Origin: Xestospongia bergquistia
Lineage: Eukaryota; Porifera; Demospongiae; Haplosclerida; Petrosiidae
Length of the DNA: 64,000 nucleotides
Assembly: GCA_963965975.1 (NCBI GenBank)
Contig: OZ014422.1
Span: forward strand, 5,355,155 to 5,419,154
Direction: 5' to 3'
The notes under the pieces were generated by a model. The model was not told the DNA's origin. It saw nothing but the letters and a program-made list of their open reading frames with translations, and did no database searches. This document shows, in pieces, positions 8,933-34,900 of the stretch (position 1 is the stretch's first letter; each line of letters starts with the position of its first letter). The position numbers and the translations under genes are program-made.

Positions 8933-9280
8933 AGAACTACTATACATAATTACATATATAACATTTAATACATATCTAAATGGAACAGTACCTTATAAAA
9001 AATTAGTGTACATGAAACATAATTATTACAATTTTTATAGTCACAGAAATTAAGATTAAATTGTTTCATTACTTTGAAATTTAATGTGTATACAAATTGG
9101 ATTCAAGATTGCACCGATAGAAATATGACTGGATCCTTACTTGTCTATAGTTCTTAATAGGTTAGTTACATCACTATGCACTGTTATAAACAGTGCATAC
9201 AATATATAACAGATAGGATATGTGTCTTGTTGTGCTCAATATTTGTTTGTTTGTCTTATTAATTTTATACTGTTGAAAAC

Positions 9281-9385
9281 CCAATGAACTGAGCATGCTC
9301 AGTTTAACAAGCTGTTTCATTGGCGCCAATTTAGTTAACCGAGCATGCTCAGTTTAACAAACCGCTTTATTGGCGGCAATTTTAG
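9281..9385. repeat. Two tandem units with CTGAGCATGCTCAG-type palindromes near the left arm end
   Basis: A unit of about 60 bp is present twice: a GAGCATGCTCAGTTTAACAA core, then a G/C-bearing stretch ending TTTCATTGGCGCCAATTT or TTTATTGGCGGCAATTTT. The first core is the perfect 14-bp palindrome CTGAGCATGCTCAG; the second is CCGAGCATGCTCAG. The mirror block at 35905-36002 on the right arm keeps two such cores. Conserved short palindromes near both ends could be protein-binding sites of a mobile element or promoter elements; this is inference. Confidence 0.7.
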
Positions 9386-9440
9386 TCATAAAAATATTAA
9401 GCATTTGGGAGACTGCCTCATTTCTGCAAGAAGAGCATAA

Positions 9441-9467
9441 CTGTTGCTGCTGCTGCTGCTGCTGCTG
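9441..9467 (+). repeat. CTG/TGC trinucleotide run
   Basis: Eight or so TGC/CTG units in a row. The mirror position on the right arm (near 35785-35800) keeps only a short, interrupted CAGCAGCAAC version, so the run expanded, or was lost, after the arms separated. Confidence 0.85.
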
Positions 9468-11919: not shown

Positions 11920-12470
11920 TATTGTCTAAAGTTGATTGGTTTTAAATTGACATCTACAATTATCATTTCTTCTCAACTCTACTTAAAACAAAAGTTAATT
12001 TTACTGACATCTCATTGTTTTACTGGCATCTAGGATTTTTCTAGGTTTCTCACAGATATCTAGGATTTTCTGTTATTTGCTGGAGTCTAAGATTTCACCT
12101 TTATTTGGCATCTAGAACTTTTCTATTTTTTGCTGACACCAGGCTTTTACTGGCATCTAGGATTTTTCTTGCTTAATCTGATTTGGAGGATTTTACTTGT
12201 TTATTACTGGTATCTATGATTTCTTGATGGCATCTAGGACTTCACTTGCTTATTTCTGGCAACAGGGATTTTTTGAATGGCATTTAGAATTTACTTACTT
12301 GTTTCTGATATCTTTGACTTACTTGTTTATTCGTATTTTAGATGCTTTCTTTTTGGTTTTACTGCATGACCTGAAAGATATGGCTTTATTAGGGATTTTA
12401 GAGCATCAAATGTTTTACCTGACATATGAAGTTTTCTTAGTATCTGGATTTTCTTTATTCTAAAATCTAA
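11920..12470 (+). repeat. Degenerate minisatellite with CATCTAGGATTTT core
   Basis: Repeated units of about 30-60 bp with the core GGCATCTAGGATTTTTCT, many diverged. Related blocks lie at 14850-15170 on the same arm and, as reverse complement, at 28440-28500 and 32440-32650 on the right arm, where it is shorter. Confidence 0.65.
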
Positions 12471-12960
12471 GCTCTTCTCCTTATCTCTAATAACTGACAT
12501 GAACTGTTGTACACTAGAATTATTAAGACTCTTTGTCAATGTATAACAATAATTATTTCACTGTTATAATAACTATTTTTCATTTTATAGTAGGACTGTT
12601 GTTTTACTAGTCTACTGGAGACGATGATCAACTGATTGAGAGCTGTTATAACTCAACAATTTAAATAATATCTTTTTTAGGACTATTTTAGAATAGAACT
12701 GTTTGTTGATCTATTGAAGATGAATGTTCTGCTGCTAGTAAGTTAATAGAAACACTTACTAAATAAATGTTCTTACTATTTGTTCTCTTATAATATTATA
12801 GTAACATATTCTATGTCAACTTGTGATAATCTAGATCTAATGTGGTCCTATGATATACTATATATGTAAGTTATATCTATTATTTATTACTAATTTACTA
12901 ACTATTTATTGTTCTTTAGTATAATGATATAATGTTCTAATGGTTGTGAGTTGTATATTA
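12470..12960 (+). repeat. Block A, copy 1 (exon/intron-like duplicated block)
   Basis: Non-tandem sequence beginning CTAATAACTGACATGAACTG. It is duplicated directly at about 15150-15640 and in reverse complement at about 28230-28430 and 31930-32390. It contains splice-like signals in order: TTTTATAG acceptor near 12591, TTTTTTAG near 12680, GTAAGT near 12738, ATTATAG near 12800, GTAAGT near 12867, and TTCTTTAG near 12918. No conserved open reading frame runs through the putative exons. It may be part of a spliced non-coding transcript. Confidence 0.55.
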
Positions 12961-13039
12961 AATATAATTATAGAACAAAGCAACTTCTATTACATTTAGT
13001 AGGTCTATTTATAACTACTAGAGATGATCTGATGACATT

Positions 13040-13605
13040 ATACTTACTGTAGGTTGACTTATTAAATAGTACATCGTTTATTGAATGAACGTTTTTGTTG
13101 TATAATAGGATGGACAGGTTTAATAGTCACTGGTAGTGATGATCTAATCTACATTAACTGATGACTACTGTAAGTTATATCTGTAATAACCATATGGAGT
13201 GTCCTGTACTAAACATATATTTTAATTTTTAGATGGACTTTGATCAACTAATAGGTGCACACATAATGTTAATATTCTAGTTGAGTGCTGGGAATGATGA
13301 CAGCTGTATCATAATACTTACACTGTGCTATAAGTATGATACTACTGACAATTGTCACTCTAGTAGATTTATAATCTGATCTACATTAACTGATGACTAC
13401 TGTAAGTTGAGTTATTAAATAATACAATTGTCTACTGAATGAACTTTTTTATAGGATGGACACGTTTAATAGTCACTGATAGTGATGATCTGATCTACAT
13501 TAGCTTATGACTACTGTAAGTTATATCAGTAATAACAATATGGAGTGTCCTGTACTAACCAGGTGAAGATATATATAAAACTACCCCTGTATAACTTCTA
13601 TACTA
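13040..13605 (+). repeat. Block B, copy 1 (exon/intron-like duplicated block)
   Basis: A block of about 560 bp with the recurring phrase TGATGACTACTGTAAGTT followed some 50-60 bp later by TTTATAG or TTTTTAG and GGATGGACA. It is repeated at about 21580-22135, in reverse complement at about 22187-22440 (partial) and 28740-29345. The regular donor-like and acceptor-like spacing resembles a chain of small exons and introns. Confidence 0.6.
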
Positions 13606-14780
13606 GTATCCTGTATTGTTAACCCTCTGTGTACTTTGTATTATGCTATCCTGTATTGTGTTAACCCACTGTGCACTTCATAATATCCTGTATGGTTAAC
13701 CTTCTGTGTCTGTTGTATTATCGTGTATTGTTAACCCTCTGTGCCCTTCGTATTATCCTGTATGGTTAACCTTCTGTGTCTGTCGTATTATCGTGTATTG
13801 TTAACCCTCTGTCCCCTTCATATTATCCTGCATTATTAACCTTCTGTGTCTTTCATATTATCCTGTATTGTTAACCTTCTGTGTCTGTCATATTATCCTA
13901 TCCTGTATTGTGTTAACCCTCTGTGCACTTCATAATATCTTGTATAGTTAACCTTCTGTGTCTGTTGTATTATCCTGTATTGTTAACCCTCTGTGCCCTT
14001 CATATTATCCTGTATGGTTAACCTTCTGTGTCTGTCGTATTATCGTGTATTGTTAACCCTCTGTGCCCTTCGTATTATCCTGTATGGTTAACCTTCTGTG
14101 TCTGTTGTATTATCGTGTATTGTTAACCCTCTGTGCCCTTGGTATTATCCTGTATGGTTAACCTTCTGTGTCTGTTGTATTATCGTGTATTGTTAACCCT
14201 CTGTGCCCTTCGTATTATCCTGTATGATTAACCTTCTGTGTCTGTCATATTATCCTATCCTGTATTGTGTTAACCCTCTGTGCACTTCATAATATCCTGT
14301 ATGGTTAACCTTCTGTGTCTGTTGTATTATCCTGTATTGTTAACCCTCTGTGCCCTTCATATTATCCTGTATGGTTAACCTTCTGTGTCTGTCATATTAT
14401 CGTGTATTGTTAACCCTCTGTCCCCTTCATATTATCCTGCATTGTTAACCTTCTGTGTCTTTCATATTATCCTGTATTGTTAACCTTCTGTGTCTGTCAT
14501 ATTATCCTATCCTGTATTGTGTTAACCCTCTGTGCACTTCATAATATCCTGTATAGTTAACCTTCTGTGTCTGTTGTATTATCCTGTATTGTTAACCCTC
14601 TGTGCCCTTCATATTATCCTGTATGGTTAACCTTCTGTGTCTGTTGTATTATCCTGTATTGTTAACCCTCTGTGCCCTTCATATTATCCTGCATTGTTAA
14701 CCTTCTGTGTCTTTCATATTATCCTGTATTGTTAACCTTCTGTGCACTTCGTATTATCCTGTATTATTAGCCCTCTATGT
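13606..14780 (+). repeat. 35-bp minisatellite array with higher-order structure
   Basis: Head-to-tail 35-bp units of the form TATTATCCTGTATTGTTAAC plus CCTCTGTGCCCTTCG. They alternate with a second type (GGTTAACCTTCTGTGTCTG), making 70-bp dimers. A longer variant with an extra TATCC and GTGTTAACC recurs near 13640, 13886, 14248 and 14506. About 33 units are present. The mirror array on the right arm has about five. Confidence 0.9.
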
Positions 14781-15640
14781 CAGTGTAAATGTGATACCAA
14801 AATATTAGAGCTCTGTGTCTATTTTACAGTACAAACATATTCTCTTGATAATTGGCATCTAGGATTATCTTTTTTTCATGATTATTCTGAAATCTAAAAC
14901 TGACATACCATTGTTTTGTTGCATCTAGGATGGTTTCTCACTGACATCAATTTCTTTATTGCTAACTTCTGACATCTAATATTTTACTCTGGTATAAAAG
15001 ACTTTACCTGGTTTCTTTATACGTAGGATTTTATTTGCATCAATGTCATACATGGGCATCTAGGATTTTTTTAGTATTTCTAGCATTGAAGGTTTTAGTT
15101 GACAGCTAAAGTTTTGTGATAATTGGGGGTCTTCCATTCTGAAATCTAGGCTCTTCCTTTTATTCTCTAATAACTGACATGAACTGTTGTACACTATAAT
15201 TATTGAGTAATTTTAGTGTACAACAGACTCTTGTCAATTAATAACAATAATTATTTCACTGTTATAATAACTATTTTTCATTTTATAGTAGGACTGTTGT
15301 TTACTAGTCTACTGGAGATGATGATCAACTGATTGAGAGCTGTTATAACTGAACAATTTAAATAATATCTTTTTCAGGACTATTTTAGAATAGAACTGTT
15401 TGTTCATCTATTGAAGATGAATGTTCTGCAGCTAGTAAGTTAATAGAAACACTTACTAAATAAATGTTCTTACTATTTGTTCTTTTATAATATTATAGTA
15501 ACATATACTATGTCAACTTGTGATGATCTATAGTTAGTCTTATGATGTAAGTCATATCTACTAGTTATTGCTAATTTAGTAACTACTTATCGTCCTGTAG
15601 TATAATGATGTTCTAATGGTTGTAAGTTTTATACTAACTA
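14781..15640 (+). repeat. CATCTAGG-type repeats and block A, copy 2
   Basis: After the 35-bp array come diverged CATCTAGGAT units (14850-15120), then a second direct copy of block A (about 15150-15640). It carries the same TTTTATAG, CTTTTTCAG, GTAAGT and ATTATAG signals as copy 1. This places block A immediately before a satellite array on this arm in both positions. Confidence 0.65.
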
Positions 15641-18600
15641 TATTTTCAGAGCAAACTAAATTCTGTTACATTTAGTAGGTCTATTTATAACTACTAGAGT
15701 TTACCTGATAACATTAATATAATGATGTAATGTTATAAGGGTTGTAAGTTGTATACTAAGTACAATTTAAATCAAACTAAATTCTGTTACATTTAGTAGG
15801 TCTATTTATAACTACTAGAGATCACCTGATGACATTAATAATTATGATGTAATGTTCTAAGGGTTGTAAGTTGTATACTAACTACATTTTAGAGCAAACT
15901 CAATTCTGTTACATTTAGTAAGTCTACTTATAACTACTAGAGATCACATGATGACGTTAATATAATGATGTAATGTTCTAAGGGTTGTAAGTTGTATACT
16001 AACTATATTTTCAGAGCAAAGTAAATTTTGTTACATTTAGTAGGTCTATTTATAACTACTAGAGATCACCTGATGACATAAATAATTATAATGTAATGTT
16101 CTAAGGGTTATAAGTTGTTTTTCAGAGCAAAGTAAATTCTGTTACATTTTGTAGGTATATTTATAACTACTAGAGATCACCTGATGACATTAATAATTTT
16201 GATGATGTAATGTTCTAAGGGTTGTAAGTTGCATACTAACTATTTTTAGAGAAAACTAAATTCTGTTACATTTAGTAGGTTTATTTATAACTACTAGAGA
16301 TCACCTTATGACATTAATAATTATGATGATGTAATGTTCTAAGGGTTGTAAGTTGTATACTAACTACTTTTAGAGAAAACTAAATTCTGTTACATTTAGT
16401 AGGTCTATTTATAACTACTAGAGATCACCTTATGACATTAATAATTATGATGATGTAATGTTCTAAGGGTTGTAAGTTGTATACTAACTATTTTTAGAGC
16501 AAACTAAATTCTGTTACATTTAGTAGGTCTATTTATAACTACTAGAGATCCCCTGATAACATAAATAATTATGATGATGTAATGTTCTAAGGGTTGTAAG
16601 TTGTATACTAACTATATTTTTAGAGCAAACTAAATTCTGTTACATTTAGTAGGTCTATTTATAACTACTAGAGATCACATGATGACATTAATATGATGAT
16701 GTAATGTTCTAAGGGTTGTACTAACTATATTTTCAGAGCAAAGTAAATTGTTACATTTAGTAGGTCTATTTATAACTACTAGAGATCACCTTATGACATT
16801 AATAATTATGATGATGTAATGTTCTAAGGGTTGTAAGTTGTATACTAACTATTTTTAGAGCAAACTAAATTCTGTTACATTTAGTAGGTCTATTTATAAC
16901 TACTAGAGATCCCCTGATAACATAAATAATTATGATGATGTAATGTTCTAAGGGTTGTAAGTTGTATACTAACTATATTTTTAGAGCAAACTAAATTCTG
17001 TTACATTTAGTAGGTCTATTTATAACTACTAGAGATCACATGATGACATTAATATGATGATGTAATGTTCTAAGGGTTGTACTAACTATATTTTCAGAGC
17101 AAAGTAAATTGTTACATTTAGTAGGTCTATTTATAACTACTAGAGATCACCTGATAACGTAAATAATTATGATGATGTAATGTTCTAAGGGTTGTAAGTT
17201 GCATACTAACTACATTTTAGAGCAAATTAAATTCTGTTACATTTAATAGGTCTATTTGTAACTACTAAAGATCACATGATGATGTTAATATAATGATGTA
17301 ATGTTCTTAGGGTTGTAAGTTGTATACTAACTATATTTTTAGAGCAAACTAAATTCTGTTACATTTAGTAGGTCTATTTATAACTACTAGAGATCACATG
17401 ATGACATTAATATGATGATGTAATGTTCTAAGGGTTGTACTAACTATATTTTCAGAGCAAACTAAATTCTGTTACATTTAGTAGGTCAATTTATAACTAC
17501 TAGAGATCCCCTGATAACATAAATAATTATGATGATGTAATGTTCTAAGGGTTGTAAGTTGTATACTAACTATATTTTCAGAGCAAAATAAATTCTGTTA
17601 CATTTAGTAGGTCTATTTATAACTACTAGAGTTACCTGATAACATTAATATAATGATGTAATGTTATAAGGGTTGTAAGTTGTATACTAACTACAATTTA
17701 AAGCAAACTAAATTCTGTTACATTTAGTAGGTCTATTTATAACTACTAGAGATCACCTGATGACATTAATAATTATGATATAATGTTCTAAGGGTTGTAA
17801 GTTGTATACTAACTACATTTTAGAGCAAACTCAATTCTGTTACATTTAGTAAGTCTACTTATAACTACTAGAGATCACATGATGACGTTAATATAATGAT
17901 GTAATGTTCTAAGGGTTGTAAGTTGTATACTAACTATATTTTCAGAACAAACTAAATTCTGTACATTTAGTACGTCTATTTATAACTACTAGAGATCACC
18001 TGATAACATAAATAATTATGATGATGTAATGTTCTAAGGGTTGTAAGTTGTATACTAACTATATTTTCAGAGCAAAGTAAATTTTGTTACATTTAGTAGG
18101 TCTATTTATAACTACTAGAGATCACCTGATGACATAAATAATTATGATGTAATGTTCTAAGGGTTATAAGTTGTTTTTCAGAGCAAAGTAAATTCTGTTA
18201 CATTTTGTAGGTATATTTATAACTACTAGAGATCACCTGATGACATTAATAATTTTGATGATGTAATGTTCTAAGGGTTGTAAGTTGCATACTAACTATT
18301 TTTAGAGAAAACTAAATTCTGTTACATTTAGTAGGTCTATTTATAACTACTAGAGATCACCTTATGACATTAATAATTATGATGATGTAATGTTCTAAGG
18401 GTTGTAAGTTGTATACTAACTACTTTTAGAGAAAACTAAATTCTGTTACATTTAGTAGGTCTATTTATAACTACTAGAGATCACCTTATGACATTAATAA
18501 TTATGATGATGTAATGTTCTAAGGGTTGTAAGTTGTATACTAACTATTTTTAGAGCAAACTAAATTCTGTTACATTTAGTAGGTCTATTTATAACTACTA

Positions 18601-21480
18601 GAGATCCCCTGATAACATAAATAATTATGATGATGTAATGTTCTAAGGGTTGTAAGTTGTATACTAACTATATTTTCAGAGCAAAATAAATTCTGTTACA
18701 TTTAGTAGGTCTATTTATAACTACTAGAGATCACCTGATGACATAAATAATTATGATGATGTAATGTTCTAAGGGTTGTAAGTTGTTATACTAACTATAT
18801 TTTCAGAGCAAAGTAAATTGTTACATTTAGTAGGTCTATTTATAACTACTAGAGATCACCTCATAACGTAAATAATTATGATGATGTAATGTTCTAAGGG
18901 TTGTAAGTTGCATACTAACTACATTTTAGAGCAAATTAAATTCTGTTACATTTAATAGGTCTATTTGTAACTACTAAAGATCACATGATGATGTTAATAT
19001 AATGATGTAATGTTCTTAGGGTTGTAAGTTGTATACTAACTATATTTTTAGAGCAAACTAAATTCTGTTACATTTAGTAGGTCTATTTATAACTACTAGA
19101 GATCACATGATGACATTAATATGATGATGTAATGTTCTAAGGGTTGTACTAACTATATTTTCAGAGCAAACTAAATTCTGTTACATTTAGTAGGTCAATT
19201 TATAACTACTAGAGATCACCTGATAACATAAATAATTATGATGATGTAATGTTCTAAGGGTTGTAAGTTGTATACTAACTATATTTTCAGAGCAAAATAA
19301 ATTTTGTTATATTTAGTAGGTCTATTTATAACTACTAGAGATCACCTGATGATGTTAATATAATGATGTAATGTTCTAAAGGTTGTAAGTTGTATACTAA
19401 CTATATTTTTAGAGCAAACTAAATTCTGTTACATTTAGTAGGTCTATTTATAACTACTAGAGATCACATGATGACATTAATATGATGATGTAATGTTCTA
19501 AGGGTTGTACTAACTATATTTTCAGAGCAAACTAAATTCTGTTACATTTAGTAGGTCTATTTATAACTACTAGCTATTTATAACTACTAGAGATCACCAG
19601 ATGACATTAATAATTATGATGATGTAATGTTCTAAGGGTTGTAAGTTGTACGCTAACTATATTTTCAGAACAAACTAAATTCTGTTACATTTAGTAGGTC
19701 TATTTATAACTACTAGAGATCACCTGATAACGTAAATAATTGTGATGATGTAATGTTCTAAGGGTTGTAAGTTGTATACTAACTATATTTTCAGAGCAAA
19801 ATAAATTTTGTTACATTTAATAGGTCTATTTGTAACTACTAAAGATCACATGATGATGTTAATATAATGATGTAATGTTCTAAGGGTTGTAAGTTGTATA
19901 CTAACTATATTTTTAGAGCAAACTAAATTCTGTTACATTTAGTAGGTCTATTTATAACTACTAGAGATCACATGATGACATTAATATGATGATGTAATGT
20001 TCTAAGGGTTGTACTAACTATATTTTCAGAGCAAACTAAATTCTGTTACATTTAGTAGGTCTATTTATAACTACTAGAGATCACCAGATGACATTAATAA
20101 TTATGATGATGTAATGTTCTAAGGGTTGTAAGTTGTACGCTAACTATATTTTCAGAGCAAACTAAATTCTGTTACATTTAGTAGGTCTATTTATAACTCC
20201 TAGAGATCACCTGATGACAATAGTATGATGATGTAATGTTCTAATGTTTGTGAGATTTTATATTAAATATGTATGTAATAGCAATATAGAGTTCCTGTAC
20301 TAACCAGGTGCCCCTGTATAACTTCCTATAACAGTGACCCATTGTCTTGATATTAAACCTGATGTCAGACCCACCCACCACTATTTATAACTACTAGAGA
20401 TCACCTGATGACATTAATAATTATGATGATGTAATGTTCTAAGGGTTGTAAGTTGTATACTAACTACATTTTAGAGCAAACTAAATTCTGTTACATTTAG
20501 TAGGTCTACTTATAACTACTAGAGATCACACGATGACGTTAATATAATGATGTGATGTTCTAAGGGTTGTAAGTTGTATACTAACTATATTTTCAGAACA
20601 AACTAAATTCTGTTACATTTAGTAGGTCTATTTATAACTACTAGAGATCACCTGATGACGTTAATATAATGATGTAATCTTCTAAGGGTTGTAAGTTGCA
20701 TACTAACTACATTTTAGAGCAAACTAAATTCTGTTACATTTAGTAGGTCTATTTATAACTACTAGAGATCACCTGATAACATTAATAATTATGATGTAAT
20801 GTTCTAAGGGTTGTAAGTTGTATACTAACTATATTTTCAAAGCGAAGTAAATTTTGTTACATTTAGTAGGTCTATTTATAACTACTAGAGATCACCTAAT
20901 GACATAAATAATCATGATTATGTAATGTTCTAAGGGTTGTGATGACATAAATAATTAGGATGACGTAATGTTCTAAGGATTGTAAGTTGTATACTAACTA
21001 TATTTTCAGAGCAAACTAAATTCTGTTACATTTAGTAGGTCTATTTATAACTACTAGAGATCACCTAATGACATAAATAATCATGATGATGTAATGTTCT
21101 AAGGGTTGTAAGTTGCATACTAACTACATTTTAGAGCAAAGTAAATTCTGTTACTTTTAGTAGGTCTACTTATAACTACTAGAGATCACCTGATGACAAT
21201 AATACTTATGATGATGTAATGTTCTAAGGGTTGTAAGTTGTATGCTAACTATATTTTCAGAGCAAACTAAATTCTGTTACATTTAGTAGGTCTATTTATA
21301 ACTACTAGAGATCACACGATGACGTTAATATAATGATGTCATATTCTAAGTGTTGTAAGTTGTATACTAACTATATTTTTAGAGCAAACTAAATTCTGTT
21401 ACATTTAGTAGATCTATTTATAACTCCTAGAGATCACCTGATGACAATAGTATGATGATGTAATGTTCTAATGGTTGTGA
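15640..21480 (+). repeat. Satellite C array, left arm (monomers about 105-127 bp)
   Basis: Some 48 head-to-tail monomers of a consensus of about 126 bp containing TTACATTTAGTAGGTCTATT, TATAACTACTAGAGATCACC, ATGATGATGTAATGTTCTAA and GGGTTGTAAGTTGTATACTAAC. Spacing between successive TCTATTTATAAC motifs is 124, 126 and 111 bp at 16404-16765; short variants lack part of the GTAAGT segment. Larger periods exist: a three-monomer unit recurs about 361 bp apart (16680 and 17040), and a section from about 15700 recurs about 1.9-2.1 kb downstream. No open frame passes through the monomers. Most monomers carry GTAAGT, TACTAAC and TTTCAG or TTTTAG in order. Confidence 0.93.
20266..20385 (+). repeat. Foreign segment inside satellite C, shared with the palindrome spacer
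   Basis: The array is interrupted by sequence resembling the end of block B (GAGTTCCTGTACTAACCAGG) followed by CCATTGTCTTGATATTAAAC and CTGATGTCAGACCCACCCAC. This last stretch occurs again at about 22132-22176, right at the palindrome junction, and I see it nowhere else in the window. It then returns directly to satellite sequence. Confidence 0.75.
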
Positions 21481-21540
21481 GTTGGATATTAAATATAATT
21501 ATAGAACAAAGCAACTTCTATTACATTTAGTAGGTCTATC

Positions 21541-21838
21541 TATAGCTACTAGAGATGATCTGATAACATTTGTTAATATACTTACTGTAAGTTGACTTAT
21601 CAAATAGTACATCGTTTATTGAATGAACTTTTTGTTGTATAATAGGATGGAGAGGTTTAATGATCACTGGTAGTGATGATCTAATCTAAATTAACTGATG
21701 ACTACTGTAAGATATATCTGTAATAACAATATGGAGTGTCTTGTACTAAACATATATTTTAATTTTTTAGACAGACTTTGATCTATTATATAGGTAAACA
21801 TAGTGTTAATATTCTCTGAGTGCTGGGAATGATGACAT
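21541..21838 (+). repeat. Inner left arm edge (block B, copy 2, first half)
   Basis: This segment pairs with 22185-22482 as a reverse complement, with coordinates summing to 44023 at every point checked. The same sum holds out to 21311/22712, so over 500 bp next to the spacer align without indels. It carries the block B splice-like signals (TACTGTAAGA near 21703, TTTTTTAG near 21769). Confidence 0.85.
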
Positions 21839-22184
21839 CTGTATCATAATACTTATACTGTGCTATAAGTATGATACTACTGACCCTTTGTCACTCTAGT
21901 AGATTTATAATCTGATCTACATTAACTGATGACTACTGTAAGTTGAGTTATTAAATAATACAATTGTCTACTGAATGAACTTTTTTATAGGATGGACACG
22001 TTTAATAGTCACTAATAGTGATGATTTGATCTACATTAGCTTATGACTACTGTAAGTTATATCAGTAATAACAATATGGAGTGTCCTGTACTAACCAGGT
22101 GAAGATATATATAAAACTACCCCTGTATAACTTCCATTGTCTTGATATTAAACCTGATGTCAGACCCACCCACCATCATCGCAA
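21839..22184. repeat. Palindrome spacer (346 bp)
   Basis: Not self-complementary across the centre. Its left two thirds continue block B in the plus orientation (compare 13296-13600), ending CCCCTGTATAACTTCCATTG. The last stretch (22132-22176) is the unusual sequence also found at 20339-20380. The junction with the right arm is at about 22176-22185. Confidence 0.8.
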
Positions 22185-25100
22185 ATGTCATCATTCCCAG
22201 CACTCAGAGAATATTAACACTATGTTTACCTATATAATAGATCAAAGTCTGTCTAAAAAATTAAAATATATGTTTAGTACAAGACACTCCATATTGTTAT
22301 TACAGATATATCTTACAGTAGTCATCAGTTAATTTAGATCAGATCATCACTACCAGTGATCATTAAACCTCTCCATCCTATTATACAACAAAAAGTTCAT
22401 TCAATAAACGATGTACTATTTGATAAGTCAACTTACAGTAAGTATATTAACAAATGTTATCAGATCATCTCTAGTAGCTATAGATAGACCTACTAAATGT
22501 AATAGAAGTTGCTTTGTTCTATAATTATATTTAATATCCAACTCACAACCATTAGAACATTACATCATCATACTATTGTCATCAGGTGATCTCTAGGAGT
22601 TATAAATAGATCTACTAAATGTAACAGAATTTAGTTTGCTCTAAAAATATAGTTAGTATACAACTTACAACACTTAGAATATGACATCATTATATTAACG
22701 TCATCGTGTGATCTCTAGTAGTTATAAATAGACCTACTAAATGTAACAGAATTTAGTTTGCTCTGAAAATATAGTTAGCATACAACTTACAACCCTTAGA
22801 ACATTACATCATCATAAGTATTATTGTCATCAGGTGATCTCTAGTAGTTATAAGTAGACCTACTAAAAGTAACAGAATTTACTTTGCTCTAAAATGTAGT
22901 TAGTATGCAACTTACAACCCTTAGAACATTACATCATCATGATTATTTATGTCATTAGGTGATCTCTAGTAGTTATAAATAGACCTACTAAATGTAACAG
23001 AATTTAGTTTGCTCTGAAAATATAGTTAGTATACAACTTACAATCCTTAGAACATTACGTCATCCTAATTATTTATGTCATCAGGTGATCTGTAGTATTT
23101 ATATATAGACCTACTAAATGTAACAGAATTTAGTTTGCTCTGAAAATATAGTTAGCATACAACTTACAACCCTTAGAACATTACATCATCATAATTATTA
23201 ATGTCATCAGGTGATCTCTAGTAGTTATAAATAGACCTACTAAAAGTAACAGAATTTACTTTGCTCTAAAAATATAGTTAATATACAACTTACAACCCTT
23301 AGAACATTACATCATAATTATTAATGTCATCAGGTGATCTGTAGTAGTTATAAATAGACCTACTAAATGTAACAGAATTTAGTTTGCTCTAAAATGTAGT
23401 TAGTATGCAACTTACAACCCTTAGAACATTACATAATCATGATTATTTATGTCATTAGGTGATCTCTAGTAGTTATAAATAGACCTACTAAATGTAACAA
23501 AATTTACTTCGCTTTGAAAATATAGTTAGTATACAACTTACAACCCTTAGAACATTACATCATAATTATTAATGTTATCAGGTGATCTCTAGTAGTTATA
23601 AACAGACCTACTAAATGTAACAGAATTTAGTTTGCTCTAAAATGTAGTTAGTATGCAACTTACAACCCTTAGAAGATTACATCATTTTATTAACGTCATC
23701 AGGTGATCTCTAGTAGTTATAAATAGACCTACTAAATGTACAGAATTTAGTTTGTTCTGAAAATATAGTTAGTATACAACTTACAACCCTTAGAACATTA
23801 CATCATTATATTAACGTCATCATGTGATCTCTAGTAGTTATAAGTAGACCTACTAAATGTAACAGAATTTAGTTTGCTCTAAAATGTAGTTAGTATACAA
23901 CTTACAACCCTTAGAACATTACATCATCATAATTATTAATGTCATCAGGTGATCTCTAGTAGTTATAAATAGACCTACTAAATGTAACAGAATTTAGTTT
24001 GCTCTGAAAATATAGTTAGTATACAACTCACAACCCTTAGAACATTACATCATAATTATTAATGTTATCAGGTGATCTCTAGTAGTTATAAATAGACCTA
24101 CTAAATGTAACAGAATTTAGTTTGCTCTGAAAATATAGTTAGTATACAACTTACAACCCTTAGAACATTACATCATAATTATTAATGTTATCAGGTGATC
24201 TCTAGTAGTTATAAATAGACCTACTAAATGTAACAGAATTTAGTTTTCTCTAAAAATAGTTAGTATACAACTTACAACACTTAGAACATTACATCATCAT
24301 ATCAACGCCATCATGTGATCTCTAGTAGTTATAAATAGACCTACTAAATGTAACAGAATTTAGTTTGTTCTGAAAATATAGTTAGTATACAACTTACAAA
24401 CCTTAGAACATTACATCATCATAATTATTAATGTTATCAGGTGGTCTCTAGTAGTTATAAATAGACCTACTAAATGTAACAGAATTTAGTTTGCTCTAAA
24501 ATGTAGTTAGTATACAACTTACAACCCTTAGAACATTACATCATTATATTAACGTCATCAGGTGATCTCTAGTAGTTATAAATAGACCTACTAAATGTAA
24601 CAGAATTTAGTTTGTTCTGAAAATATAGTTAGTATACACAACCCTTAGAACATCACATCATTATATTAACGTCATCGTGTGATCTCTAGTAGTTATAAGT
24701 AGACCTACTAAATGTAACAGAATTTAGTTTGCTCTAAAATGTAGTTAGTATACAACTTACAAGCCTTAGAACATTACATCATCATAATTATTAATGTTAT
24801 CAGGTGGTCTCTAGTAGTTATAAATAGACCTACTAAATGTAACAGAATTTAGTTTGCTCTGAAAATATAGTTAGTATACAACTTACAACCCTTAGAACAT
24901 TACATCATAATTATTAATGTTATCAGGTGATCTCTAGTAGTTATAAATAGACCTACTAAATGTAACAGAATTTAGTTTGCTCTAAAATGTAGTTAGTATG
25001 CAACTTACAACCCTTAGAAGATTACATCATTATATTAACGTCATCAGGTGATCTCTAGTAGTTATAAATAGACCTACTAAATGTAACAGAATTTAGTTTG

Positions 25101-28100
25101 TTCTGAAAATATAGTTAGTATACAACTTACAACCCTTAGAACATCACATCATTATATTAACGTCATCATGTGATCTCTAGGTGTTATAAGTAGTCTACTA
25201 AATGTTACAGAATTTAGTTTGCACTAAAATGTAGTTAGTATACAACTTACAACCCTTAGAACATTACATCATCATAATTATTAATGTTATCAGGTGGTCT
25301 CTAGTAGTTATAAATAGACCTACTAAATGTAACAGAATTTAGTTTGCTCTGAAAATATAGTTAGTATACAACTTACAACCCTTAGAACATTACATCATAA
25401 TTATTAATGTTATCAGGTGATCTCTAGTAGTTATAAATAGACCTACTAAATGTAACAGAATTTAGTTTTCTCTAAAAATAGTTAGTATACAACTTACAAC
25501 CCTTAGAACATTACATCATCATATCAACGCCATCATGTGATCTCTAGTAGTTATAAATAGACCTACTAAATGTAACAGAATTTAGTTTGTTCTGAAAATA
25601 TAGTTAGTATACAACTTACAACCCTTAGAACATCACATCATTATATTAACGTCATCGTGTGATCTCTAGTAGTTATAAGTAGACCTACTAAATGTAACAG
25701 AATTTAGTTTGCTCTAAAATGTAGTTAGCATACAACTTACAACCCTTAGAACATTACATCATCATAAGTATTAATGTCATCAGGTGATCTCTAGTAGTTA
25801 TAAGTAGACCTACTAAAAGTAACAGAATTTACTTTGCTCTAAAATGTAGTTAGTATGCAACTTACAACCCTTAGAACATTACATCATCATGATTATTTAT
25901 GTCATTAGGTGATCTCTAGTAGTTATAAATAGACCTACTAAATGTAACAGAATTTAGTTTTGCTCTGAAAATATAGTTAGTATACAACTTACAATCCTTA
26001 GAACATTACGTCATCCTAATTATTTATGTCATCAGGTGATCTGTAGTATTTATAAATAGACCTACTAAATGTAACAGAATTTAGTTTGCTCTGAAAATAT
26101 AGTTAGCATACAACTTACAACCCTTAGAACATTATATCATCATAATTATTAATGTCATCAGGTGATCTCTAGTAGTTATAAATAAACCTACTAAAAGTAA
26201 CAGAATTTACTTTCCTCTGAAAATATAGTTAATATACAACTTACAACCCTTAGAACATTACATCATAATTATTAATGTCATCAGGTGATCTGTAGTAGTT
26301 ATAAATAGACCTACTAAATGTAACAGAATTTAGTTTGCTCTAAAATGTAGTTAGTATGCAACTTACAACCCTTAGAACATTACATCATCATGATTATTTA
26401 TGTCATTAGGTGATCTCTAGTAGTTATAAATAGACCTACTAAATGTAACAAAATTTACTTTGCCTTGAAAATATAGTTAGTATACAACTTACAACCCTTA
26501 GAACATTACATCATCATAATTATTAATGTCATCAGGTGATCTCTAGTAGTTATAAATAGACCTACTAAATGTAACAGAATTTAGTTTGCTCTAAAATATA
26601 GTTAGTATACAACTTACAACCCTTCGAACATTACATCATAATTATTAATGTCATCAGGTGATCTCTAGTAGTTATAAATAGACCTACTAAATGTAACAGA
26701 ATTTAGTTTAGTCTAAAAATATAGTTAGTATACAACTTACAACCCTTAGAACATTACATCATTATATTAATGTCATCAGGTGATCTCTAGTAGTTATAAA
26801 TAGACCTACTAAATGTAACAGAATTCAGTTTGCTCTGAAAATATAGTTAGTATACAACTTACAACCCTTAGAACATTACATCATTATATTAATGTCATCA
26901 GGTGATCTCTACTAGTTATAAATAGACCTACTAAATGTAACAGAATTCAGTTTGCTCTGAAAATATAGTTAGTATACAACTTACAACCATTAGAACATTA
27001 CATCATAATTATTAATGTCATCAGGTGATCTCTAGTAGTTATAAATAGACCTACTAAAAGTAACAGAATTTAGTTTGCTCTAAAAATATAGTTAGTATAC
27101 AACTTACAACCCTTAGAACATTACATCATAATTATTAATGTCATGAAGTGATCTCTAGTAGTTATAAATAGACCTACTAAATGTAACAGAATTTAGTTTG
27201 CTCTAAAAATATAGTTAGTATACAACTTACAACCCTTAGAACAATATATCATCATAATTATTAATGTCATCAGGTGATCTCTAGGAGTTATAAATAGACC
27301 TACTAAATGTAACAGTATTTAGTTTGTTCTGAAAATATAGTTAGTATACAACTTACAACCCTTAGAACATTACATCATAATTATTAATGTTATCAGGTGA
27401 TCTCTAGTAGTTATAAATAGACCTACTAAATGTAACAGAATTTAGTTTTCTCTAAAAATAGTTATTATACAACTTACAACACTTAGAACATTACTTCATC
27501 ATATCAATGCCATCATGTGATCTCTAGTAGTTATAAGTAGACCTACTAAATGTAACAGAATATAGTTTGCTCTAAAATGTAGTTAGTATACAACTTACAA
27601 CCTTTAGAACATTACATCATAATTATTAATGTCGTCAGGTAAACTCTAGTAGTTATAAATAGACCTACTAAATGTAACAGAATTTAGTTTGCTCTAAAAT
27701 AAAGTCAGTATGCAACTTACAACTCTTAGAACTTTACATCATCATATTAACGTCTTCATGTGATCTCTAGTAGTTATAACTAGACCTACTAAATGTAACA
27801 GAATTTAGTTTGCACTAAAAATATAGTTAGCATACAACTTACAACCCTTAGAACATTACATCATCATACTTATTTATGTCATCATGTGATCTCTAGTAGT
27901 TATAAATAGACATCCTAAATGTAACAAAATTTAGTTTGCACTAAAAATATAGTTAGCATACAACTTACAACCCTTAGAACATTACATCATCATACTTATT
28001 TATGTCATCATGTGATCTCTAGTAGTTATAAATAGACATCCTAAATGTAACAAAATTTAGTTTGCACTAAAAATATAGTTAGCATACAACTTACAACCCT

Positions 28101-28240
28101 TAGAACATTACATCATCATAATTATTTATGTCATCATGTGATCTCTAGTAGTTTCAAATAGACCTACTAAATGTAACAGAATTTAGTTTGCTCTGAAAAT
28201 ATAGTTAGTATAAAACTTACAACCATTAGAACATCATTAT
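22185..28240 (-). repeat. Inner right arm: block B (partial) and satellite C in reverse orientation
   Basis: 22187-22540 mirrors the left arm edge; from about 22540 satellite C runs in reverse complement (CTACTAAATGTAACAGAATT, GTTAGTATACAACTTACAAC). Monomers near the centre match their left-arm partners almost exactly. Farther out the order differs by gains and losses, for example tandem copies of one variant at about 27860-28100 with the ATAGACATCCTAAATG change. The splice-like motifs read on the minus strand. Confidence 0.9.
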
Positions 28241-28740
28241 ACTACAGGACGATAAGTAGTTACTAAATTAGCAATAACTAGTAGATATGACTTACATCAT
28301 AAGACTAACTATAGATCATCACAAGTTGACATAGTATATGTTACTATAATATTATAAAAGAACAAATAGTAAGAACATTTATTTAGTAAGTGTTTCTTTT
28401 AATTTACTAGCTGCAGAACATTCAACAAAACAATGGTATGTCAGTTTTAGATTTCAGAATAATCATGAAAAAAGATAATCCTAGATGCCAATTATCAAGA
28501 GAATAGGTTTGTACTGTAAAATAGACACAGAGCTCTAATATTTTGGTATCACATTTACACTGACATAGAGGGCTAATAATACAGGATAATACGAAGTGCA
28601 CAGAAGGTTAATAATACAGGATAATACAACAGACACAGAAAGTTAACCATACAGGATATTATGAAGTGCACAGAGGGTTAACACAATACAGGATAGGATA
28701 ATACAAAGTACACAGAGAGTTAACAATACAGGATACTAGT
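28240..28740 (-). repeat. Right arm block A (short) and shrunken 35-bp array
   Basis: 28240-28435 is block A in reverse complement. 28440-28550 retains only part of the CATCTAGG region. 28556-28735 holds about five 35-bp units in reverse complement (AGGGTTAACAATACAGGATA-type). The same order occurs on the left arm with over six times as many 35-bp units. Confidence 0.75.
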
Positions 28741-29345
28741 ATAGAAGTTATACAGGGGTAGTTTTATATATATCTTCACCTGGTTAGTACAGGACACTCC
28801 ATATTGTTATTACTGATATAACTTACAGTAGTCATAAGCTAATGTAGATCAGATCATCACTATCAGTGACTATTAAACGTGTCCATCCTATAAAAAAGTT
28901 CATTCAGTAGACAATTGTATTATTTAATAACTCAACTTACACTAGTCATCAGTTAATGTAGATCAGATTATAAATCTACTAGAGTGACAAAGGGTCAGTA
29001 GTATCATACTTATAGCACAGTATAAGTATTATGATACAGATGTCATCATTCCCAGCACTCAGAGAATATTAACACTATGTTTACCTATATAATAGATCAA
29101 AGTCTGTCTAAAAAATTAAAATATATGTTTAGTACAAGACACTCCATATGGTTATTACAGATATAACTTACAGTAGTCATCAGTTAATGTAGATCAGATC
29201 ATCACTATCAGTGACTATTAAACGTGTCCATCCTATAAAAAAGTTCATTCAGTAGACGATTTACTATTTGATAAGTCAACTTACAGTAAATATATTAACA
29301 AATGTCATCAGATCATTTCTAGTAGCTATAGATAGACCTACTAAA
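28740..29345 (-). repeat. Right arm block B copy
   Basis: Reverse complement of block B: GGTTAGTACAGGACACTCC, ACTTACAGTAGTCATAAGC, then CATTCCCAGCACTCAGAGAA. It separates the two right-arm satellite arrays. Confidence 0.75.
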
Positions 29346-29399
29346 TATAATAGAAGTTGCTTTGTTCTATAATTATATTTAATATCCAACTCACAACCA

Positions 29400-31950
29400 T
29401 TAGAACATTACATCATTATACTATTGTCATCAGGTGATCTCTAGGAGTTATAAATAGATCTACTAAATGTAACAGAATTTAGTTTGCTTTAAAATATAGT
29501 TAGCATACAACTTACAAACCTTAGAACATTACATCATCATAATTATTAATGTCATCACGTCATTACTAGTAGTTATAAATAGACCTACTAAATGTAACAG
29601 AATTTAGTTTGCTCTATAAATATAGTTAGTATGCAACTTACAACCCTTAGAACATTACATCATTATGTTAATGTCATCAGGTGATCTCTAGTAGTTATAA
29701 ATAGACCTACTAAATGTAACAGAATTTAGTTTGCTCTGAAATAAAGCTAGTATACAACTTACAACACTTAGAACATTACATCATTAATATAATGTCATCA
29801 AGTAAACTCTAGTAGGTCTAAGTTTGCTCTAAAATAAAGTTAGCATGCAACTTACAACCCTTAGAACATTACATCATCATATTAACGTCATCATGTGATC
29901 TCTAGTAGTTACAAATAGACCTACTTAATGTAACAGAATTTAGTTTGCTCTATAAATATAGTTAGCATGCAACTTACAACTCTTAGAACATTGCATCATC
30001 ATATTAACGTCATCATGTGATCTCTAGTAGTTATAAATAGACCTACTAAATGTAACAGAAATTAGTTTGCTCTGAAAATATAGTTAGTATGAAACTTACA
30101 ACCCTTAGAACATTACATCATCATATTAACGTCATCATGTGATCTCTAGTACTTACAAATAGACCTACTAAATGTAACAGAATTTAGTTTGCTCTATAAA
30201 TATAGTTAGTATGCAACTTACAACCCTTAGAATATTACATCATCATGTTAATGTCATTATGTGATCTCTTGTAGTTACAAATAGACCTACTAAATGTAAC
30301 AGAATTTAGTTTGCTTTATAAATATAGTTAGTATGCAACTTACAACCTTAGAACATTACATCATCATATTAACGTCATGATGCGATCTCTAGTAGTTATA
30401 AATAACCTACTAAATGTAACAGAATTTAGTTTGCTCTATAAATATAGTTAGTATGCAACTTACAACCCTTAGAACATTACATCATCATATTAACGTCATC
30501 ATGCGATCTCTAGTAGTTATAAATAGACCTACTAAATGTAACAGAATTTAGTTTGCTCTGAAAATATAGTTAGTATGCAACTTACAACCCTTAGAACATT
30601 ACATCATCATATTAATGTCATCATGTGATCTCTAGTAGTTATAAATAAACCTACTAAATGCAACAGAATTTAGTTTGCTCTATAAATATAGTTAGTATAC
30701 AACTTACAACTCTTAGAACATTACATCATCATATTAATGTCATCATGTGATCTCTAGTAGTTACAAATAGACCTACTAAATGTAACAGAATTTAGTTTGC
30801 TCTATAAATATAGTTAGCATGCAACTTACAACCCTTAGAACATTACATCATCATATTAACGTCATCATGTGATCTCTAGTACTTACAAATAGACCTACTA
30901 AATGTAACAGAATTTAGTTTGCTCTATAAATATAGTTAGTATGCAACTTACAACCCTTAGAACATTACATCATCATGTTAATGTCATTATGTGATCTCTT
31001 GTAGTTACAAATAGACCTACTAAATGTAACAGAATTTAGTTTGCTTTATAAATATAGTTAGTATGCAACTTACAACCTTAGAACATTACATCATCATATT
31101 AACGTCATCATGCGATCTCTAGTAGTTATAAATAGACCTACTAAATGTAACAGAATTTAGTTTGCTCTGAAAATATAGTTAGTATGCAACTTACAACCCT
31201 TAGAACATTACATCATCATATTAATGTCATCATGTGATCTCTAGTAGTTATAAATAGACCTACTAAATGCAACAGAATTTAGTTTGCTCTATAAATATAG
31301 TTAGTATACAACTTACAACTCTTAGAACATTACATCATCATATTAATGTCATCATGTGATCTCTAGTAGTTACAAATAGACCTACTAAATGTAACAGAAT
31401 TTAGTTTGCTCTATAAATATAGTTAGCATGCAACTTACAACCCTTAGAACATTACATCATCATATTAACGTCATCATGTGATCTCTAGTACTTACAAATA
31501 GACCTACTAAATGTAACAGAATTTAGTTTGCTCTATAAATATAGTTAGTATGCAACTTACAACCCTTAGAACATTACATCATCATGTTAATGTCATTATG
31601 TGATCTCTTGTAGTTACAAATAGACCTACTAAATGTAACAGAATTTAGTTTGCTTTATAAATATAGTTAGTATCCAACTTACAACCTTAGAACATTACAT
31701 CATCATATTAACGTCATGATGTGATCTCTAGTAGTTATAAATAGACCTACTAAATGTAACAGAATTTAGTTTGCTCTGAAAATATTGTTAGTATGCAACT
31801 TACAACCCTTAGAACATTATATCATCATATTAATGTCATCATGTGATATCTAGTAGTTATAAATAGACCTACTAAATGTAACAATTTAGTTTGATCTGAA
31901 AATATAGTTAGTATAAAACTCACAACCCTTAGAACATCATTATACTACAG
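29400..31950 (-). repeat. Second right-arm satellite C array (about 2.5 kb), nearly absent from the left arm
   Basis: About 20 monomers in reverse complement, a subfamily marked by CTCTATAAATATAGTTAG and GCATGCAACTTAC. Higher-order copies occur: the variant CTCTAGTACTTACAAATAG recurs at about 30147, 30877 and 31488. At the matching place on the left arm (about 12930-13050) only one diverged monomer is present. Confidence 0.9.
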
Positions 31951-34900
31951 GACGATAAATAGTTAGTAAATTAGTAATAAATAATAGATATGACTTACAT
32001 ATATAGTATATCATAGGACCACATTAGATCTAGATCATCACAAGTTGATATAGAATATGTTACTATAATATTATAAGAGAACAAATAGTAAGAACATTTA
32101 TTTAGTAATGTTTCTATTAACTTACTAGCAGCAGAACATTCATCTTCAATAGATCAACAAACAGTTTTATTCTAAAATAGTCCTAAAAAAGGTATTATTA
32201 AATTGTTGAGTTATAACAGCTCTCAATCAGTTGATCATCATCATCTCCAGTAGACTAGTAAAAAACAGTCCTACTATAAAATGAAAAATAGTTATTATAA
32301 CAGTGAAATAATTATTGTTATTAATTGACAAGAGTCTGTTGTACACTAAAATAATACCAGTGTACAACAGTCCATGTCTGTTATTAGAGGATGAAGATGC
32401 TCTAAAATCTCCAATAAAGCCATATCTTCAAATCTTTCAGGTCATGCAGTAAAACCAAAAAGAAGACATCTAAAATACAAATAAACAAGTAAGTCAAAGA
32501 CACCAGAAACAACCAAGTAAATTCCTAAATGCCAGTAAAACAATGAGATGTCAATAAAATTAACTTTTGTTTTAAGTAGAGTTGAGAAGAAATGATAATT
32601 GTAGATGTCAATTTGAAACCAATCAACTTTAGACAATACATAAACTCCAGATGCAAGACAAACTGGAACAGAAGGTAGAGATCAGTTAAGACACAATGAT
32701 ATTACATAAGGATTAGATGAAAGACACAATGTGTATCAATATTTTATATATAAAGGAACAAAGGTTTTAATAAATGAAGATTATAGGAAGGACACAAGAA
32801 GTTTAACACAACAAGCAATATAAGACAAAAGAGAACAAGACTATGTAGATATAATAATACATGAACTCTGTGGGTCATATACAATAAGACTATAAATAAG
32901 ATAACACAAGACTATAACAAGATTGGGTCATATACAATAAGACTATAATAAGATAATACAAGACTATAATATAATAGACAATAGAATAACTTCTAGTTTA
33001 CAAAAGTACTACAAAATTAATGAAGCAGTAGATACAATAATATGATAACAGAAGTTGAAAACAATATAATATAACACAAAGTGTTACAGAACAGTCTCAG
33101 GAGATAGATATGTAAGATAACATGTACAGGAGATATTGCTGAATAAAATGTCAGAATGAGTTGTAACAGTCATACGAGACATTAACAATAACTCTGATAA
33201 TGTACAAAGTCATAACAGTCACAGCAGATAGCACAAGAAAAGATTGAATACAAGAATTATTATTAAACAATAATTTGATAATGTAGCAGAGTGACAACAG
33301 ATCATAACACTGGATAGAACATAGGAGCTATAATATTAAGCAAAATTCAACAAGCAGATCATTGTTACATATAACAGTCACATGTGATGACAATATATTT
33401 AAGAGAAATATAAGAGGTATTACTAGATCAAACATAATAAAGAACACTTGTCATAACTTTTTCAGGAAATGTTAACACAGGGTAGAACAAGTAAAGAAAG
33501 GATTACTAGACCAAACACTATTATAAGTACAAGTATTTTAACTGGAATATACACAAGAGCTATTACTAGGATCCAATAAAGGACAGAGTTATGAAAATAG
33601 AAGTAGCAAGAGCCTAATATGACAGGTATATAACAAGGTTGTAAATTGTAGACACTAGTAGATTCAGTGTAAATAAATGATTTATAAAAGTATATAGTAT
33701 TAGTGTATGAGGTCACAAAAGATGACAGAATTTATACAAAATACAGATACCAAAAGATTAATGAATTCACAAATAGAATATAAAGAGAGACTTCTCTACC
33801 AGATTATATATTAGTACACAAGTGATATGTTTTATATAATAGATTGTGTGTGTATGTCACAGGGATAGATTGTATTGTATTGTATTATAAGACATTATGT
33901 GGTCGGGTATTAAGAGGTTTGTATATGTATATGTCACTGGGAAAGGATTGTATTGTATTATAAGAGGTTGGATATTAAGACATTTGTATATACTATATAC
34001 TAAGTTGTACAATAGGACATTTTGTAGCATGTGTAATAAGACATTCATTCATGTACATGTCACAGGACAATGTTACACTATATATAGGACATCATGTAAT
34101 GGAATATGTCATAAGGTTAAGTTATCATAAGGGTCACAAAAGGTTTGTGTAAGTATGTCACAGAGTTAGGTTGTATCATGAGATATTACATGATAAGGAT
34201 AACAAGATATTTGTGTATGAATATGTCAACATGTCACAGGGCTATGTTGTACCACAAGATATTACATGGTTGTGTGATGTTTTGTATGTCACAGGGCTGT
34301 GTTTGAGTGATAACAGTAAATGAACAACAAGAGTGGATGTATTTACATGTCATAGGACTCATAATAGATTTGTCATGTACAAGTGATAGGTAGATCATAT
34401 GGGTATCTGAATGTTATCATATATTTTAAAGTGTGTCCGAATATATGTTATAAGTCTCACAAGAGGTTGGCATATGTAGATGTTGTAGTGTGATAGGCTT
34501 AACAAAGGGTGTGTATATGTACATGTTAACAAAGAAGATGCACACATACATATTATAGGGTATACAGTTACAAGATATGGGTCATATCTCTGACTAGTTA
34601 TCATTACATGTTGAGTGACACTTAGAAATGAAAGCTATCCAGGCATCTGCCATAAAATTTGTGGTTTAAGAGAGAGATTAACTATGTGTATAACTCTGGT
34701 ACATGGCTTGTTACAACACTGCAGTTACCTAATAGACATTACTCCTACATATTTCAGCAAAACATTACAAGAGGGTTGTAAGTATGTTCTAAAATTAGAC
34801 TTTTGGACCCACAGAGTTCATGTACTTAGCAGGGAGGCTTACTGGTCATTGCAGTTAACAAGATGGTTTTCATTAGCTATGTTATAAGCTACAACAAAGA

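Follow-up and report, generated by a model that had tools for sequence, protein, structure and literature searches.

How does a satellite come to carry, in monomer after monomer, what looks like a miniature intron, and is such an array spliced? The question is raised by the window analysed here, a 64,000-nt stretch of contig OZ014422.1 of the sponge Xestospongia bergquistia (positions 5,355,155 to 5,419,154), in which monomers of about 120 bp carry, in this order, the donor word GTAAGT, the branch-site word TACTAAC and an acceptor word, TTTCAG or TTTTAG. Genome-wide searches covered a 21-contig genome of 146 Mb, in which the window is G000:C12:5355155-5419154. Judged from sequence, the satellites probably arose when one segment was expanded within an apparently non-coding, spliced gene belonging to a many-copy, intron-dense family. 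The mini-introns of the arrays look inherited from this parental gene rather than kept by selection.

Gene-like modules and the birth of the arrays

Each of the three arrays in the window is bounded by the acceptor of one predicted intron, C, and the donor of another, E, of a gene-like module. Such a module is made of short exons and of predicted introns B, C, E, F and G, each 52-64 nt long, and the array stands where a single 28-nt segment, D, lies in the unexpanded module. The unexpanded copy is L1; modules L2, R1 and R2 contain the arrays. In the following list, decimal values for donor, YAG and interior are identities to the dispersed loci.

12402-13601, plus strand: unexpanded module L1, exons and introns B-H (family matches, splice-word reading)
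12738-12801, plus: L1 predicted intron B, 64 nt (donor 0.99, YAG 0.94, interior 0.86)
12866-12919, plus: L1 predicted intron C, 54 nt (donor 0.96, YAG 0.97, interior 0.86)
12946-12973, plus: L1 segment D, 28 nt (GTGAGT...TAG), counterpart of the satellite mini-intron (donor 0.96, YAG 0.97, interior 0.78)
13049-13108, plus: L1 predicted intron E, 60 nt, donor GTAGGT in this copy (splice-word reading)
13170-13232, plus: L1 predicted intron F, 63 nt (donor 0.93, YAG 0.94, interior 0.77)
13402-13454, plus: L1 predicted intron G, 53 nt (donor 0.91, YAG 0.91, interior 0.87)
13516, plus: L1 donor of a truncated intron H (splice-word reading)
15435-15498, plus: L2 predicted intron B (splice-word reading)
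15547-15600, plus: L2 predicted intron C, whose acceptor is the left array border
15601-21586, plus: left satellite array (L2), from C acceptor to E donor, with a short interruption near 20240-20380
21477-21504, plus: last D unit of L2, parent-like, GTGAGTTGGATATTAAATATAATTATAG
21587-21645, plus: L2 predicted intron E, whose donor is the right array border
21707-21770 and 21938-21990, plus: L2 predicted introns F and G; H donor at 22052
32125-32063 and 31998-31945, minus: R1 predicted introns B and C
29285-31944, minus: outer right array (R1), between C and E
29394-29367 and 29284-29233, minus: R1 D and predicted intron E (52 nt)
29171-29108 and 28940-28888, minus: R1 predicted introns F and G; H donor at 28826
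28295-28242, minus: R2 predicted intron C
22437-28241, minus: inner right array (R2), between C and E
22546-22519, 22436-22378 and 22316-22253, minus: R2 D and predicted introns E and F

These borders, together with the unexpanded module at 12402-13601, lend good support to one suggestion of the original prediction, namely that the satellite grew by duplicating an exon-intron unit. The tandemly expanded unit would consist of about 26 nt of exon, the 28-nt D and about 68 nt of the next exon. A 4-nt TATA is common to the exon end (..GTTAATATACTTACT, then GTAAGT) and to the beginning of the exon that follows C (TATAATGATG). The founding duplication may have taken place there, and the sequence at the monomer join, ..GTTAATATAATGATG.., would fit this. 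Later growth would have proceeded by unequal exchange. An origin of the monomer by back-splicing, through a circular RNA, was considered: the join falls at the TATA match and not at the donor, so that duplication at the level of DNA is the simpler account.

Coding function was rejected, since stops occur in all frames. With B, C, D, F and G removed, the longest open stretch of L1 is 34 codons, and no long open reading frame (ORF) is formed. Neither a microRNA nor a small nucleolar RNA (snoRNA) fits: no Rfam model matched at its gathering (curated) score, and no stable fold was found (z of -1.6 to 1.3 for four units). A permissive Rfam scan of 8900-22200 returned five weak matches, all below threshold. 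The best relative score among them was that of snoZ247 at 13472-13531 (21.1 bits against the 38 needed, E 2.6).

Splice words across a dispersed family

The module and the 5' region that precedes it (8984-10632 on the plus strand, mirrored at 34572-36334 on the minus strand) recur widely in the genome. Scoring 40 of 95 candidates for the 5' region (query 8984-10640), two of which were the window's own, gave at least 38 places outside the window on 12 contigs, the best piece of each being 66-71% identical. For the module, 39 of 291 candidates were scored, one being the window's own, and at least 38 places outside the window were found on 11 contigs; both counts are lower bounds. About 10 kb was read at 20 of the 38 5'-region places (L006-L025), together with five further stretches and seven upstream flanks. 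The usual order within a copy is the 5' region, several kinds of tandem repeat, the module, further repeats and often a second module.

At the left end of the window lies a gene with frames up to about 8930, whose relatives contain FN3 (PF00041) and whose EGF matches stay slightly under the curated score. In eight copies of the family examined, the 5' side holds altered pieces of the last two exons of this FN3-type gene together with the stretch between them, which argues that the copies spread as DNA. The gene itself was rejected as a family member, as these copies contain only altered pieces of its 3' end. Further sequence of it was absent from the 5 kb upstream of L010, the sole upstream stretch of that length read.

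Different copies have amplified different units: 114 bp in 28 copies (L028), a 114-bp unit in 5 (L006), 132 bp in 18 (L013), 388 bp in 2.9 (L020), 61 bp in 34 (L023) and the roughly 120-bp unit in L026, L027 and L030. In the consensus of both the 114- and the 132-bp unit there is a single GTAAGT, and counting by eye places an AG 53 or 61 nt after the start of that word. The donor word is strongly oriented, with 217 sense and 40 antisense occurrences in the 20 loci L006-L025, and 70:2 in L026, 34:2 in L027, 39:3 in L028 and 27:0 in L030.

The splice words of the module were picked from the window sequence alone (12402-13560) and then scored in the dispersed loci. Over 21 loci, six GTRAGT words have an identity of 0.96, compared with 0.828 for all hexamers, a level reached by a fraction of 0.0004 of random sets; five TACTAA words have 0.946 (0.005 of random sets). 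The control words were not raised (ACTYAC 0.789, TGARTG 0.866, TTAGTA 0.812), and the same held for GTRAGT and TACTAA words read backwards or on the opposite strand. Six TGATGA words also lie above the average (0.92 against 0.828, 0.02 of random sets); they resemble box C of C/D snoRNAs.

Rates of change were counted as Fitch events per lineage on a tree of 23 rows, with 1158 circular shifts as the null. By a manually chosen rule, the first YAG lying 45 nt or more past the donor (24 or more for D) counted as the acceptor. Donors changed at 0.0152 events per lineage against 0.0491 elsewhere, and none of the 1158 shifts was as low. TACTAA changed at 0.0192 (5/1158), and the ends of introns B, C, F and G jointly at 0.0252 against 0.0488 (2/1158), while among the controls ACTYAC ranked 805/1158 and TTAGTA 256/1158. 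In a position-free test, a donor or branch word was found in 7 of the 15 slowest 12-mers, compared with 6.6% of windows (binomial 2e-5); for 8-mers, 10-mers and 15-mers the figures are 4/15, 4/15 and 6/15, and control words were always at 0/15. Among seven deep lineages, donors were about ten-fold slower than the rest (0.0093 against 0.0991, 0/1158), TACTAA stood at 0.0422 (27/1158; controls 1115 and 198) and YAG at 0.0467 against 0.0969 (130/1158). With L007, L013 and L028 as references, the donors of deep lineages changed at 0.0178, 0.0242 and 0.0178 against 0.1001, 0.1110 and 0.0960, that is, 4.6 to 5.6 times more slowly (ranks 1/860, 0/990 and 4/713). Exons and intron interiors changed at equal rates (0.0454 and 0.0450 events).

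Several results weigh against splicing of the family. The loose acceptor word was not raised (0.84, 0.42 of random sets), the five acceptor YAGs, D included, changed at 0.0397 against 0.0481 (380/1158), and the GT and AG dinucleotides alone were not clearly slow (0.0298, 79/1158). Restricted to the 17 recent loci, donors give a weak signal (0.0173 against 0.0314, 75/1158) that is matched by the ACTYAC control (0.0109, 69/1158); TACTAA there stands at 0.0116 (27/1158) and YAG at 0.0407 (890/1158). Under the alternative references L007, L013 and L028, TACTAA ranked 42/860, 195/990 and 46/713, which is not significant for L013, and of the four control words two were absent and the others occurred once or twice and were not low. 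An earlier tree test, on an alignment with extended ends, gave 56/776 for donors and acceptors together, 90 for donors and 220 for acceptors, and an earlier identity test gave 15/815 shifts, with 57/815 for donors alone. The homology of the extended ends is doubtful, and the test was therefore repeated on window coordinates, a repeat that was chosen after the 56/776 outcome had been seen. The stretch 12402-13560 also contains three donor words on its other strand, and because the copies share common ancestry, the independent introns number only about seven.

Donor constraint in these alignments is thus plain at great depth, but among copies of recent origin, a number of which may no longer function, it is weak or absent. 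The pattern suggests that transcription and splicing of the family continue or went on for a long time, and that selection would have acted on splicing and not on exon sequence. Where the original prediction proposed a spliced non-coding locus, the proposal gains indirect support for the parental family, through its slow donor and branch motifs.

Several observations concern the copies themselves. Downstream of the module, L006, L008, L009, L011, L012 and L017 have an ankyrin-type ORF fragment of about 103 amino acids, which we take to be FEM1-like and for which no Pfam family was found; some copies have it whole, others interrupted. The idea that it is a genuine 3' exon was rejected, given stops in L011 and L017, a split frame in L012 and a stop just upstream in L006 (by eye). 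The ORFs at L007:9130-9864 and at the ends of L022 and L024 presumably resemble a BEL/Pao-type integrase and the N-terminus of a piggyBac-type transposase. On another contig, part of the 5' region (query position 567 onward) is matched five times within G000:C1:13180466-13622769, always in the same orientation and at intervals of about 90-130 kb, possibly a giant tandem or a regularly spaced element. Outside the sponge, 21 exact 17-base-word matches in bacterial or archaeal records were taken as chance, and viral contigs gave none. Among the literature matches listed, nothing names this family or satellite, which is no proof of its being undescribed.

Monomers, the 28-nt unit and rival explanations

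The arrays consist of similar monomers placed head to tail and are satellite DNA. Monomers were cut with a 36-nt exon anchor, present in 114 copies (48 plus, 66 minus); a copy was kept if the next lay 70-200 bp away, and the 8 copies lacking such a neighbour were dropped, leaving 106 monomers. Their lengths are 111-127 bp, apart from one of 143 and one of 169, with a mode of 122 (31 monomers). GTAAGT occurs in 93 of the 106, TACTAAC in 82 and TTT[CT]AG in 86, and 62 contain the ordered triple, spanning 26 nt in 9 monomers, 27 in 17, 28 in 35 and 29 in one. About 100 monomers with tiny intron motifs had been predicted, and they are real; the triple exists as described, although "most" comes down to 58% on the strict definition. 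When a monomer was dinucleotide-shuffled and both strands were examined, the ordered triple turned up once in 20000 trials, odds to which the number of monomers adds nothing, as all descend from one shared founder. The window has 105 copies of TACTAAC, whereas shuffles predict 23.2.

The predicted orientation of the motifs, plus on the left and minus on the right, is borne out: GTAAGT in the left satellite stands 43 times on the plus strand and once on the minus, and the strand of TACTAAC switches between 22089 and 22652. Eight monomers lack the donor and retain the acceptor part, as had been noted, along with the branch motif. The layout of two arms needs amending in one respect; the left arm is one array, and the right half consists of two, at 31944-29285 and 28241-22437, separated by a module tail that is itself unexpanded and by 35-bp repeats. 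Genome-wide, GTAAGT..TACTAAC..TTTCAG with gaps of 0-30 occurs 52 times. Of these, 48 belong to this satellite, at 28-29 nt, and the remaining 4, outside it, measure 43-65 nt; the reversed pattern occurs 6 times.

Are the motifs better preserved than the rest of the monomer? In the window arrays they are not: motif positions have a mean identity of 0.951 and other positions 0.955, and the motif mask, when shifted circularly, scores as high in 71 of 124 cases. A wider set was drawn from the two window arms and from C1, C4, C6, C8 and C12:6.17 Mb, with 287 anchor copies of which 262 monomers at a spacing of 80-140 bp were kept; C1 (2 monomers) was excluded from the average. Here, motif positions reach 0.915 and the rest 0.934 (96 of 121 shifts do as well), and GT, AG and the branch A alone have a mean of 0.950 (37/121 shifts). 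On conservation, the arrays show what the original prediction had named as grounds for refuting it. The consensus is almost identical in all seven monomer sets, so that homogenisation or recent spread limits the power of this comparison. GTRAG..AG is kept in 213 of the 262 monomers and TACTAAC in 159, unevenly: 28/30 on C12:6.17 Mb, 32/81 on C6, 8/24 on C8 and 6/19 on C4. The ordered triple is present in 29/43 monomers of the left arm, 32/63 of the right, 24/81 on C6, 18/30 on C12:6.17 Mb, 4/24 on C8, 4/19 on C4 and 1/2 on C1. With motifs at background level in the arrays and TACTAAC patchy across C6, C8 and C4, the ideas of a selected mini-intron and of a splicing-factor sponge find no support.

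The parental counterpart of the 28-nt unit, D, reads GTGAGTTGTATAGTAACTATAATGTTAG in the family consensus. Its AG is present in 22 of 22 loci and GTRAG in 17, and its donor is part of a 12-mer that ranks among the 15 slowest in the parental module; as a set, however, the D ends are not significant (173 of 1158 shifts overall, 308 among deep and 413 among recent lineages). The distance from the D donor to the E acceptor at 13108 is 163 nt, and the D donor could serve a longer intron ending there. To our knowledge, 28 nt is shorter than any known animal intron. In the small samples taken from this genome it also falls below the lengths seen, the minimum being 49 nt among 14 introns of the neighbouring gene (assigned by eye; 49-327 nt, median 100) and 43-65 nt among the four non-satellite triples. 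Splicing is reported for ultra-short human introns of 43, 49 and 56 nt, 43 being the shortest there (PMC4463651). Excision of the 28-nt unit alone is doubtful on these lengths, and splicing between monomers is possible. The unit would mostly not be removed by itself; either the transcript would keep the array as one long exon, or a monomer donor would join a later acceptor, about 150 nt away in the next monomer.

These lengths bear directly on the proposal that a 28-nt intron is removed from each monomer of a transcribed array, yielding dozens of 94-nt mini-exons, with strong motifs favoured for that purpose. Signals in the satellite D are indeed stronger than in the parental D at donor, branch and acceptor (GTGAG to GTAAG, TAGTAAC or TATTAAA to TACTAAC, TATAG or GTTAG to TTTCAG), and the D donor lies in a slow 12-mer with the conserved GTRAG and AG given above. 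Set against this are the lack of extra conservation in the arrays, the non-significant D ends and the longer introns both in the small samples from this genome and in human, so that the proposal is unlikely. A related and likewise improbable version combines it with the dispersed family: a non-coding family would keep splicing and not exon sequence, different units would have expanded into satellites, and the window arrays would be spliced either monomer-wise via 28-nt introns or between monomers into strings of 94-nt exons. A further idea is that the array, when transcribed, soaks up splicing factors such as U1 or proteins that bind the branch site. The consensus donors, dozens in each array and all on a single strand, would suit such a sponge; the triple is incomplete elsewhere, at 24/81 on C6, 4/24 on C8 and 4/19 on C4, though 18/30 on C12:6.17 Mb, and this role is very improbable.

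An ordinary satellite, whose intron-like words arose by chance in an AT-rich founder and which has no transcript, would explain why array motifs change like the rest, why exons change as fast as intron interiors and acceptors are not clearly constrained, and why there is neither RNA structure nor an Rfam match at the curated score. The founder module speaks otherwise. It contains six GTRAGT words, where shuffles average 0.84 and 0 of 2000 reach six; five of the words are followed by AG at 28-64 nt, and their rate of change is 3 to 10-fold under that of their neighbours. Chance origin is a rather unlikely account. The inverted arrangement invites a different thought, that the locus is a long hairpin RNA locus or a fold-back element whose inverted arms are functional and yield double-stranded RNA. 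Arms of about 13 kb and a perfect 902-nt inverted repeat around a 340-nt spacer agree with it, as does an opposite-strand satellite match on C4, 15 kb from the rest. The matches on C6, C8 and C12:6.17 Mb nevertheless have one orientation, and the outer arms are only 76% alike; such a function seems improbable, and the inverted layout looks like a feature of this window. Expansion within a spliced non-coding gene stays the probable origin of the arrays.

Setting of the locus, known parallels and significance

The inverted locus as a whole occupies 8984-36334. At its centre, the perfect repeat comprises 20940-21841 and 22182-23083, and longer stretches of the arms away from it share about 74-92% identity; the perfect match may stem from a recent conversion or duplication, or from an artefact of assembly. 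Both arms contain a two-copy 50-bp repeat (9287-9382 and 35898-35998) with the palindromes GAGCATGCTC (listed also as GAGCATGCTC/GGCGCC) and TTGGCGCCAA, and a related 51-bp repeat is found in L006 and L023. This repeat is a candidate promoter, and the 5' region may have a promoter role. Further right, 38035-63625 holds a unit of about 7 kb in four tandem copies, about 90-92% identical; the single copy scanned contains a caspase-domain ORF and a COR-domain (COR-A) ORF. Two additional features, from the tandem-repeat search and arm comparison, lie within the locus:

13607-14776, plus: 35-bp tandem repeats between modules L1 and L2
28563-28735, minus: shorter run of the same 35-bp repeat

Several known systems offer parallels. 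The snoRNA host genes of the Bsr and SNHG14 type are non-coding tandem exon-intron units, much longer, with a snoRNA in the intron; here, the introns measure 28-64 nt and no Rfam model matches at the curated score. Satellite DNA in general resembles these arrays in being head-to-tail, homogenised and shared by several chromosomes with nearly one consensus, but the window arrays keep their place inside gene-like modules. In its way of working, the family appears closest to Firre, a mammalian long non-coding gene with repeat exons, combined with splice-motif constraint of the kind reported for human long intergenic non-coding RNAs. In Firre, the RRD repeat makes up 7 of 13 exons in human and 11 of 23 in mouse (PMC4820808). 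Both are non-coding genes in which one repeat forms many exons, the present family being predicted from sequence. The local repeats of Firre are discontinuous within a single locus, whereas here a dispersed family has head-to-tail arrays of about 120 bp and no extra constraint on exons. In human long intergenic non-coding RNAs, most purifying selection is reported to be splice related (PMC4245815). The likeness lies in the constraint on splice motifs, seen here as slow donor and branch words with exons changing like intron interiors; the human results are general and stress exon ends, while here paralogues within one genome are compared and intron words only.

The origin of a satellite is often hard to trace, because the founder has been lost. 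In this sponge, a founder module, an unexpanded copy and arrays grown from at least two of its parts are present in one genome, so that birth and growth can be followed. Were the 28-nt units spliced, the smallest size accepted for an animal intron would drop. The family would also serve as a natural experiment, run more than once, on whether splicing itself is the target of selection in long non-coding genes.

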